Part shown: positions 34,472 through 54,700 of the stretch, piece after piece
Numbering within the stretch: position 1 is the first letter of the stretch
How the letters are laid out: the number at the start of each line of letters is the position of its first letter
Assembly: GCA_001829495.1 (NCBI GenBank)
Contig: MIBJ01000017.1
Span: 111,029 to 175,028 of the forward strand
Direction of reading: 5' to 3'
Source: Spirochaetes bacterium RBG_16_49_21
Lineage (GTDB): Bacteria > Spirochaetota > UBA4802 > UBA5550
Length of the DNA: 64,000 bases
Made by a program: the position numbers and the translations under genes
Notes under the pieces: generated by a model
Databases searched by the model: none
What the model saw: the letters and a program-made list of their open reading frames with translations, nothing else
What the model was told of the DNA's origin: nothing

Positions 34472-35680
34472 ATGGCTGAAAAAAAATACCCATATGTGAT
34501 CGTCGGCGGCGGTCTCGCGGGAGTATCCGCCATAGAAGGGATCAGGGAGGCGGATAAGTCCGGCGCTATTCTATTAATCGGCAGTGAAAAGGATATGCCG
34601 TATGACCGGCCGCCCCTGTCGAAAAAGCTCTGGTTCGGCAAAAAGAAGATTGAAGAGATTTTTCTGCATGACCGGACTTTTTATAGCAACAATAATGTTG
34701 AATTGACGCTGGGGTCAACCGTAACGGGACTGGACAGGGCGAAAAAAATGCTCACGACCGGCAGCGGCGACACCCTCCTCTATTCAAAGCTTCTCCTCGC
34801 AACCGGCGGATTTCCCCGCAGATTGCAAATCCCCGGCGGCGATCTGGCTGAGATATGCTACTACCGTACCCTGGAAGACTATAAAAGAATCCGCGGCATG
34901 GCCGCTGAGGGGAAGACGGCACTGGTCGTCGGCGGAGGCTTCATCGGCTCCGAGATCGCGGCTGCGCTCAGCGTGAATAAACTGGACGTCACCATGATCT
35001 TTCCCGAGGATTATCTGGTCCAGAGAATATTCCCCGAGGGCCTGGGCAGATCAATCCAGAAAAAATACGCCGGACGCGGGATCTCCATACTGAATCAGGA
35101 CGAGCCGGCCTCATTCGAAAAGAAGTCGGGCCGGATAACAACCAGAACGAAAAAAGGGAGGGAGATACAATCAGACATCGTCATAGCGGGGATAGGTATT
35201 ATCCCGGCGCTGGAATTGGCCCGGCAGGGGGGGGTAAGCACGGACAATGGAATCCTCGTCGATGAATATCTTGCCGCATCCGACCCCGATATTTATGCGG
35301 CAGGCGACAACGCCAATTTTAACTATGCCGCCCTGGGACAGCGGATGCGCCTTGAGCACTGGGATAATTCCATTGCCCAGGGCAGGGCAGCGGGAAGGAA
35401 CATGGCGGGAGCGGGTGTGAAGTTCGATTATATCCCCTATTTTTTCTCCGACCTTTTTGAATTCGGATACGAGGCGGCGGGGAATATCAATTCGCAGCTG
35501 GAGACTTTTTCGGATTGGAAAAAAGAGTATGATACCGGCGTCATATATTATCTGCAAGACGGCGCGGTCAAGGGCGTGATGCTCTGCAACGTATGGGAAA
35601 AAATCGACGCCGCGCGCGATCTGATCCGCAAACAAAAGAAGGTGAAACCCGGAGACCTCAAGGGTGCAATATCATTTTAG
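34472..35680 (+). CDS. AIF/rubredoxin-reductase-like NAD(P)/FAD-dependent oxidoreductase
   Basis: YVIVGGGLAGVSAIEGIRE, DRPPLSKKLW, ALVVGGGFIGSEIAAAL, DPDIYAAGDNANF; ATG at 34472. Confidence 0.92.
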   Translation: MAEKKYPYVIVGGGLAGVSAIEGIREADKSGAILLIGSEKDMPYDRPPLSKKLWFGKKKIEEIFLHDRTFYSNNNVELTLGSTVTGLDRAKKMLTTGSGDTLLYSKLLLATGGFPRRLQIPGGDLAEICYYRTLEDYKRIRGMAAEGKTALVVGGGFIGSEIAAALSVNKLDVTMIFPEDYLVQRIFPEGLGRSIQKKYAGRGISILNQDEPASFEKKSGRITTRTKKGREIQSDIVIAGIGIIPALELARQGGVSTDNGILVDEYLAASDPDIYAAGDNANFNYAALGQRMRLEHWDNSIAQGRAAGRNMAGAGVKFDYIPYFFSDLFEFGYEAAGNINSQLETFSDWKKEYDTGVIYYLQDGAVKGVMLCNVWEKIDAARDLIRKQKKVKPGDLKGAISF

Positions 35681-35696
35681 TAATCAAGGAGGAATT

Positions 35697-36017
35697 ATGC
35701 TCGCCGAAATGAAGTGTACTCCGATAGATAAAGCCAAGCCGCCGATGCCTTTGACTGAAGCAAAAAAAATGTTGAGCGAAATATTGGGGTGGACACTCGT
35801 GAATTCAACGATAACGCGTGAATTCAAATTCAAGAATTTCATTGAAGCCATGCAGTTTGTCAATAAAGTCGCCGATCTGGCAAATAGTGAAGACCACCAC
35901 CCTGACATTCATATCTCTTACAGCAAGGTCAGATTGGAGCTGTCGACACATGCGATCGGCGGGCTGTCGATGAATGATTTTATCGTAGCGGCGAAAATTA
36001 ATCTCTTTAAACCCTGA
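35697..36017 (+). CDS. Pterin-4a-carbinolamine dehydratase
   Basis: EDHHPDIHISYSKVRLELSTHAIGGLSMNDF active-site motif; stop TGA lies in an intergenic repeat. Confidence 0.93.
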   Translation: MLAEMKCTPIDKAKPPMPLTEAKKMLSEILGWTLVNSTITREFKFKNFIEAMQFVNKVADLANSEDHHPDIHISYSKVRLELSTHAIGGLSMNDFIVAAKINLFKP

Positions 36018-36110
36018 CCTCACCCCCCGGCCCCCTCTCCTATTAAGAAATGAAAAAAGGAGAGGGGGAGTCTAAGGATGAAGCTTAATGCTCCGCGCGG
36101 GTGAGGTCAG
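36014..36110. repeat. Intergenic repeat element A with 11-bp terminal inverted repeats
   Basis: CTGACCTCACC (36014-36024)...GGTGAGGTCAG (36100-36110); internal stem CCCCCTCTCCT (36031-36041)/AGGAGAGGGGG (36058-36068). Confidence 0.85.
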
Positions 36111-39798: not shown

Positions 39799-39842
39799 AA
39801 CCCTCTCGGCCCCCTAAATCCCCGGAGGGGGACTTAAAAGCT
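39799..39842. repeat. Intergenic repeat element F (short/decayed)
   Basis: CCCTCTCGGCCCCCTAAATCCCCGGAGGGGGACTTAAAAGCTTC; shares GGCCCC-stem-GGGG-ctTAAAA with element B. Confidence 0.5.
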
Positions 39843-39877
39843 TCTGACAAATGAGTGTTATGGCTGATAAACATATA

Positions 39878-44298: not shown

Positions 44299-44390
44299 CC
44301 CCCTCCCTCGATGGGAGGGGGTGGGGGGAGGGTGCCGCGTCTTGTCCCTCACCCCCTCCTAACCTCCCCCATCAAGGGGGAGGGAGGTCA
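44299..44390. repeat. Intergenic repeat element E (two G/C hairpins) between nuoI and nuoJ
   Basis: CCCCCTCCC-tcgat-GGGAGGGGG (44299-44321) and CCTCCCCC-atcaa-GGGGGAGG (44363-44383); TGACCTC terminus (minus strand) at 44390. Confidence 0.75.
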
Positions 44391-44903
44391 CGGCAAAAGG
44401 CTCTTCACGTCCACCGGGGGCTCTTCGTTCTCGCCTTCACCCTTGCCCTTGCCCGTGATCGCGAGGCCGGCGACCTTGTAAAAGTTGAACCCCTTATATT
44501 TTCCCTCCCCGTCCACGAGGAGATGCTCCTTCTCGTACACGAGATTGCGGCGGTCATACTCGCTCATCTCAAAGTCGGGAATGAGCTGAATGGCGTAGGT
44601 CGGGCACGCCTCCTCGCAATAGCCGCAGAAAATGCAGCGTGAGAAATTGATACGGAAGAACTCCGGGTATCGTCTCCCGTCCGCGCTCTCAGCAGCCTGT
44701 AGTGCGATGCAGTCCACGGGACAGGCTGCTGCACACAGGTAGCAGGCTACGCAGCGCTCGCCGCCGTCCGGATCCCTGGTAAGGATGATCCGCCCCCTCC
44801 ACCGGGCCGGCAGGACCGGCTTCTCCTCCGGGTACTGGAGCGTCACCTTTTTTCGGAAAAGGTGGATGAAAACGAGGAACATGCTTCTCAGTATGCTGAA
44901 CAT
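44388..44903 (-). CDS. nuoI: NADH-quinone oxidoreductase subunit I
   Basis: [18 protein letters not shown] and [18 protein letters not shown] 2x[4Fe-4S]. Confidence 0.96.
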
Positions 44904-53282: not shown

Positions 53283-53340
53283 CCCCTGACCTCCCCTGTA
53301 GAGACGCAGTGCACTGCGTCTCTACAGGGGAGGTCAGGGG
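53283..53340. repeat. 58-bp perfect palindrome (nested repeat element C)
   Basis: CCCCTGACCTCCCCTGTAGAGACGCAG-TGCA-CTGCGTCTCTACAGGGGAGGTCAGGGG. Confidence 0.95.
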
Positions 53341-53433
53341 AGGAAGCCGCACCATTAAAAATTGCATCTCCGCCTATTTTGAATAGTCAAACAGAAAAAA
53401 CTTCACTATTTTAACTTAATGGAGTACATTCCT

Positions 53434-54594
53434 ATGTTAGTCGGCATTCCAAAAGAAACTTTTCCCGGCGAGCGACGGGTGGCGCTTGTTCCGTCGCTGG
53501 TTCCGGAACTGGCCAAAAAAGGGATCGGAACCGTGATAGAGGCGGGCGCCGGCGATCCGGCCGGCTTCCCCGACAGCGCGTACGCGGAAAAGGGAGCGCG
53601 GATAGCGACTAACCGGGAGAAGGTGTTCCTCTCCGCGGAGGTTCTCCTCCAGGTAAGGGCAATGGGAGCAAACCCCCGGGAGGGGCTCAAGGACCTGCCT
53701 CTTCTCAATGAGGGCACGGTCGTGATCGGCTTACTTGAGCCGCTGGCGGCAGGGGATATTCTGTCCCGCTATGCCGAAGCCGGCGTCACCTCTTTCGCCC
53801 TTGAGCTCATCCCCCGCATAACGCGTGCGCAGTCCATGGACGCGCTCTCCTCACAGGCAACCATCGCCGGCTACAAGGCCGCCCTGATCGCGGCGAGCAC
53901 ACTGCCCCGGATGTTCCCCCTGCTGATGACCGCGGCCGGCACGGTAACCGCCGCCCGCGTGTTCGTGATCGGCGCAGGCGTGGCAGGTCTTCAGGCCATC
54001 GCAACCTCTCATAGGCTCGGCGCCGTCGTGCAGGCATACGACGTCCGCCCCTCTGTTAAAGACCAGGTACAGAGCGTCGGCGCCAAGTTCGCGGAGCTTC
54101 CCCTTGAGCCGGGTGACGCTGAGGACGGGGGTGGATACGCACGGGCGATGGGCGAGGAATTCTACCGGCGCCAGGCGGAGATGATGGGACGGATCGTGTC
54201 CGCAAGCGATGTCGTCATATCAACGGCGACGGTGCCGGGGAAAAAGGCCCCGATCCTCATCACCGCGGACATGGTAAAAGCCATGGCTCCCGGGTCCGTG
54301 ATCATGGACCTGGCTGCGGAGAGGGGGGGAAACTGCGAGCTCACCAGGCCCGGCGAAACGATCGTGGAGCACGGGGTCACGGTGATGGGACCGGTCAATC
54401 TGCCGTCGGCCGTCCCGTATCACGCAAGCCAGATGTATGCGAAGAATATCTCCGCGTTTCTCATTCATCTGCTCAAGGACGGGAAGATCGATACGAATGC
54501 TGACGATCAGATCATCGCAGAGAGCATGATTACCGCCGGCGGCCGGATTGTAAACAGCCGCGTCAGAGAAGCGCTGAAGGCGGCGCAGACATGA
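53434..54594 (+). CDS. pntAA: NAD(P) transhydrogenase subunit alpha part 1
   Basis: MLVGIPKETFPGERRVALVPS, GAGVAGLQAIATSHRLGAVVQAYDVRP; track start 53419, alternative ATG 53434; stop TGA lies in repeat element B. Confidence 0.95.
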   Translation: MLVGIPKETFPGERRVALVPSLVPELAKKGIGTVIEAGAGDPAGFPDSAYAEKGARIATNREKVFLSAEVLLQVRAMGANPREGLKDLPLLNEGTVVIGLLEPLAAGDILSRYAEAGVTSFALELIPRITRAQSMDALSSQATIAGYKAALIAASTLPRMFPLLMTAAGTVTAARVFVIGAGVAGLQAIATSHRLGAVVQAYDVRPSVKDQVQSVGAKFAELPLEPGDAEDGGGYARAMGEEFYRRQAEMMGRIVSASDVVISTATVPGKKAPILITADMVKAMAPGSVIMDLAAERGGNCELTRPGETIVEHGVTVMGPVNLPSAVPYHASQMYAKNISAFLIHLLKDGKIDTNADDQIIAESMITAGGRIVNSRVREALKAAQT

Positions 54595-54700
54595 CCTCAC
54601 CCCCGGCCCCTCTCCAAATTGGAGAGGGGGGCTTAAAACTATAAGCTTAATCACCCCCCTTCTTTTATTGAGGAGAAGGGGGGAAGGGGGGATGAGGTCA
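54592..54700. repeat. Intergenic repeat element B with TGACCTCA/TGAGGTCA ends
   Basis: TGACCTCACCCCCGGCCCCTCTCC...; second hairpin CCCCCCTTCT (54654-54663)/AGAAGGGGGG (54674-54683); TGAGGTCA 54693-54700. Confidence 0.85.

Follow-up and report, generated by a model that had tools for sequence, protein, structure and literature searches.

Element A, the repeat lying at the end of the pterin-4a-carbinolamine dehydratase (PCD) gene, is probably a non-autonomous, REP/MITE-like palindromic repeat that settles preferentially just 3' of coding sequences and acts there as a REP-like 3'-end hairpin. It was found in a 64,000-nucleotide stretch of DNA (the window) within contig C17 of a draft genome of 3.80 Mb in 83 contigs. 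The family resembles REPs, the hairpin repeats known from gene 3' ends, with an unusually precise placement, and not a mobile unit equipped with its own stop codon.

The PCD open reading frame, whose likelier start is the ATG at 35697, preceded by AAGGAGG, ends in ...AAA CCC TGA (AAACCCTGA). As the initial annotation had claimed, the stop TGA at 36015-36017 was found within an 11-bp terminal inverted repeat, which is mirrored at the far end of the element, and an inner stem of 11 bp is perfect. The predicted RNA fold of element A was -52 kcal/mol (z = -6.9 compared to shuffled sequences), with the PCD UGA paired within the outer stem. The element aligns with positions 1-80 of the BLAST consensus of its family, which is approximately 140 bp long and has two hairpins. 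Another repeat (GAAAAGGGTTATTCGCGCCTTTGCG...) adjoins the outer side of its right terminal repeat. No match to an Rfam family was found in the window at gathering thresholds. The coordinates of these features and of the related elements in the window are listed in Table 1.

Table 1. Coordinates in the window of PCD, element A and its parts, and related elements.
Feature	Position	Strand	Basis
PCD open reading frame (pterin-4a-carbinolamine dehydratase)	35664..36017	+	Pfam Pterin_4a, E 2e-30
Element A, whole	36014..36110	+	family copy with internal deletion
Element A, left terminal repeat CTGACCTCACC, containing the PCD stop TGA	36014..36024	+	sequence
Element A, inner stem, left arm CCCCCTCTCCT	36031..36041	+	perfect 11-bp stem, sequence and fold
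Element A, inner stem, right arm AGGAGAGGGGG	36058..36068	+	sequence and fold
Element A, right terminal repeat GGTGAGGTCAG, mirror of CTGACCTCACC	36100..36110	+	sequence
Element B, first triplet is the pntAA stop TGA (54592-54594)	54592..54700	+	sequence, fold
Element E, at the stop codon of nuoI (44388-44390); hairpin TGACCTCCCTCCCCC	44345..44390	-	sequence, fold
Related intergenic palindrome TGACCTCCCC-[GTAGAGACGCAGTGCACTGCGTCTCTAC]-GGGGAGGTCA, away from stop codons	53279..53344	.	sequence, fold
Lone TGACCTCACC end lying upstream of a gene, away from stop codons	33427..33436	-	sequence

The same arrangement had been described for elements B and E, and it held more fully for the former. The stop TGA of the pntAA open reading frame (53419-54594) forms the first bases of TGACCTCACCCCCGGCC, and element B contains two inner hairpins and a slightly imperfect mirror end at 54700 (TGACCTCATCC). 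The stop of the nuoI open reading frame (44388-44903, minus strand) does lie within TGACCTC, but element E lacks the mirrored GAGGTCA end and folds weakly (z = -1.9); it is at most a degenerate relative.

The family consists of multi-copy palindromes of approximately 90-140 bp, with about 40 copies detectable by BLAST in the genome itself. Its core is CCTCACCC...GGGTGAGG with two inner hairpins, and in this species the outer bases are usually (Y)GA. The end motif GACCTCNCCCC occurred at 119 sites in the genome compared to 11 for a reversed control pattern, bearing out the earlier view that the recurrence exceeds chance. Flanks amounting to about 0.57 Mb were fetched for about 100 of the 119 sites, leaving out about 20. 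Among the 165 ends scored, the base before the GACCTC or GCCCTC end was T in 93, C in 54, G in 17 and A in one. The congeners G004 and G002 gave 46 and 16 BLAST matches to the family, respectively. A shorter core, GACCTCACCCCCNGCCCC, was found across many phyla, from Bacteroidetes to Chloroflexi and Cyanobacteria; there A is the base that most often precedes the motif and a TGA stop was found at 2 of 86 sites, indicating that the (T)GA end is no general property of the motif.

Several other features of repeat architecture were observed. The GACCTC element is often nested in outer inverted shells (TCTCGCAAAGAC... or CCCTAAATCCCC...TTC; L087, L121, L085, L107 and L070), and at loci of this genome the two flanks of any one element are more alike than flanks taken from different elements. 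At L101:2900-3075 the gene-side flank TCATCCATGAACCTTCTC recurs inverted on the other side of the copy, as though the palindrome had grown outward. Hairpin loops of the element hold other perfect palindromes (AAGGCGGGGATGCGCATCCCCGCCTT, GTAGAGACGCAGTGCACTGCGTCTCTAC) at L069, L081, L093, L110, L123 and window positions 53297-53325; these are hairpins inserted in hairpins. Another abundant family of hairpins, GGCCCCCTAAATCCCCCGGAGGGGGACTT...AGCCCCCCTCCGGGGGG, is present at 39813-39850 of the window and at L072, L082 and L131.

The position of the ends relative to stop codons was determined with gene calls from our own simple coding model, trained on long open reading frames. Of the 165 ends, 64 were entered by a coding frame whose stop lay between -300 and +150, and in seven of these the stop is the TGA of the element (sdhA, adenylate cyclase, phosphopantetheinyl transferase, dxr, cysC, a PTS EIIA gene and pntAA). 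PCD, which the filter for coding frames had dropped, and nuoI, whose sequence escapes the motif, bring the number to nine. In a separate gene-call analysis of 72 paired elements, 61 ends faced the 3' end of a gene: eight of them at distance 0 (TGA directly followed by CCTC), none at 1-3 nt and 24 at 4-60 nt. Counted together with unpaired copies and nuoI, the exact-stop cases number about ten. At a background of about 0.42 per nt, the Poisson probability of at least eight ends at distance 0, where 0.42 are expected, is 2e-8. Allowing for tolerated in-frame loss of the final codons reduces the excess at exact stops, and the probability weakens to about 0.001 with two and 0.05 with four expected at equivalent in-frame positions. 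In G001, G002 and G022, distance 0 was found in 3 of 13 stop-facing ends. These findings support the proposal of insertion at stop codons or of selection for them, which was to fall if copies genome-wide showed no enrichment there: at the approximately 100 sites with flanks the enrichment goes beyond expectation. It is real, yet confined to a minority of the copies. Seventeen of the 72 paired elements lie between divergent genes, showing that the gene-end position is a tendency and no rule.

It is possible, though less likely than not, that no targeting takes place at all, and that elements insert at random, purifying selection clears the copies that alter a protein, and the survivors in the TGA frame collapse onto distance 0. 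A surplus of TGA-frame (frame-1) endings over read-through endings, about 8-9 to 3, is what selection of this kind would be expected to leave. The near exclusion of A before the element end partly accounts for the gap seen at 1-2 nt, as it would alone forbid most insertions at those distances past a stop. On the other hand, 12 of the 30 stop-facing ends in the sister genome G004 crowd at 7-13 nt past the stop, where they are free of protein constraint.

Comparison with orthologues bears on whose stop codon the TGA is. NuoI of G026, where the element is absent, ends in the same terminal residue, and SdhA of G026 in the same terminal tyrosine; SdhA and NuoI both cover their family profiles through the last position. 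Adenylate cyclase has the same terminal lysine in five congeners, with the stops TGA, TGA, TAA, TAA and TAG. The ends of Dxr and EIIA were within a few residues of the orthologue ends. At the rpoB-rpoC junction, rpoB ends in ...KIDSLKNI-stop in six of six congeners: an element sits directly on the stop TGA in G001 and G004, in opposite orientations, G000, G003 and G005 have the stop without an element, and G002 has TGACCTC, a possible remnant. The rpoB copies could have descended from a single insertion. The G004 copy has TGA at the rpoB side only, with no mirror, and G004 copies in general end in CCCTCACC with variable outer bases and without TGA. The comparison with loci lacking the element, as suggested in the initial annotation, thus yielded the same ends for NuoI, SdhA, adenylate cyclase and RpoB, but no clean empty site was found in the congeners for PCD, present only in G026 at 48% identity, or for pntAA, of which only distant forms were found. 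The exactness of these four ends, beyond merely near, also speaks against random insertion followed by selection.

Judged from these sequences, the TGA is normally the native stop of the gene. The element does not bring a stop codon and sits on or just after one, because orthologues without it end at the same codon and the G004 ends have no TGA. The idea that the repeat spreads as a module supplying its own terminator codon is therefore largely refuted and must be regarded as very improbable. In this genome, 93 of the 165 ends do show the (T)GACCTC start of the family consensus, and the C-terminus of CysC is longer by a few residues (SRKD), coded by the flanking shell repeat TCTCGCAAAGAC (L112:3040-3060), and ends at the TGA of the element; under random insertion this would be a tolerated altered end. 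However, the other proteins keep their native ends, most copies lie off stop codons, and the terminal T is replaced by C or G at 71 of the 165 ends. A test of whether the outermost bases of the two ends covary, which would have pointed to selection for TGA/TCA pairing, gave no significant result (P = 0.32).

REPs and BIMEs of the GTAG and CGTC superfamilies are multi-copy palindromes that usually lie 3' of coding regions, in the space separating unidirectional or convergent genes; many form inverted pairs, and their RNA folds into a hairpin (PMC3733652). The family is likewise a high-copy intergenic palindrome, mostly 3' of genes and flanked by unidirectional or convergent ones, with an RNA hairpin and frequent inverted pairing. 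In contrast, its unit is longer (90-140 bp), coincides exactly with stop codons and nests in other hairpin repeats. No unpaired GTAG or CGTC tag was found in element A, which ends in CTGACC.../...GGTCAG, and the element is not a classical GTAG/CGTC REP. The absence of the tag also counts against a REPIN moved by the REP-associated tyrosine transposases (RAYTs) of the genome itself, a reading that we consider unlikely. REPINs are inverted doublets that form a hairpin, are non-autonomous and are linked to RAYTs (PMC3116915). Element A is similarly a non-autonomous palindromic doublet forming a hairpin, and the genome has four Y1_Tnp genes (L033-L036; G000 C17:106655, C46:60195, C25:19694 and C1:84811). 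The two tested were closest to NCBIfam REP_Tyr_transpos, below the cut-off, and appear RAYT-like in sequence. All four are flanked by GGGGTCAGAG/CTCTGACCCC-type repeats instead of the element, and they were rejected as obvious mobilisers.

MITEs are short elements with terminal inverted repeats, no coding capacity and many copies. Element A has terminal inverted repeats and is short, non-coding and multi-copy; it differs from MITEs in that no target-site duplication was evident at boundary offsets of -3 to +3 in 68 paired elements, which fits a REPIN-like doublet. We know of no autonomous transposon that matches it. A strong GC-rich hairpin directly past a coding region might also be a Rho-independent terminator, a role that can scarcely be credited here: neither hairpin is followed by a T-run, indicating that the element is not an intrinsic terminator, and it was not reported by a terminator scan.

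By this comparison, the role of the element is likely that of a REP-like 3'-UTR hairpin. E. coli REPs at 15 nt or less from a stop codon are reported to stall ribosomes, according to the summary in PMC12306157. The strong hairpin at or just past the stop codon is common to both; here, in contrast, the stop codon itself can join the predicted stem. The repeat would move within the genus and land preferentially just 3' of coding sequences. Where it lands on a stop codon, the host TGA would overlap the terminal (T)GA of the element, so that the native protein end is kept. The transcribed hairpin, starting from the stop codon, may then serve as a 3'-end and decay barrier and modulate termination and the downstream gene, as stop-proximal REPs would, and an element at a gene end would be retained since it does no harm there or is of slight benefit.

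Less probably, the repeat is a targeted mobile hairpin that recognises the host T(GA) common to its own end, making insertion automatically harmless to the protein. That copies sit repeatedly on the rpoB stop, in both species G001 and G004 and in opposite orientations, would be an instance of such targeting. A literature search on elements inserting at stop codons returned nothing direct, and targeted gene-end insertion and random insertion with selection both remain compatible with the findings. If insertion were truly aimed at stop codons, the family would be a clean case of a selfish repeat that spares its host by using a translation signal as landing site. Strong hairpins would then stand at the termination codons of core genes, rpoB, nuoI, sdhA and dxr among them, where any influence on termination, on mRNA decay or on the expression of downstream genes could be measured. 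Under the ordinary reading as well, loci with and without the element at the same stop codon would provide a comparative set for testing the effects of REP-like 3' hairpins.
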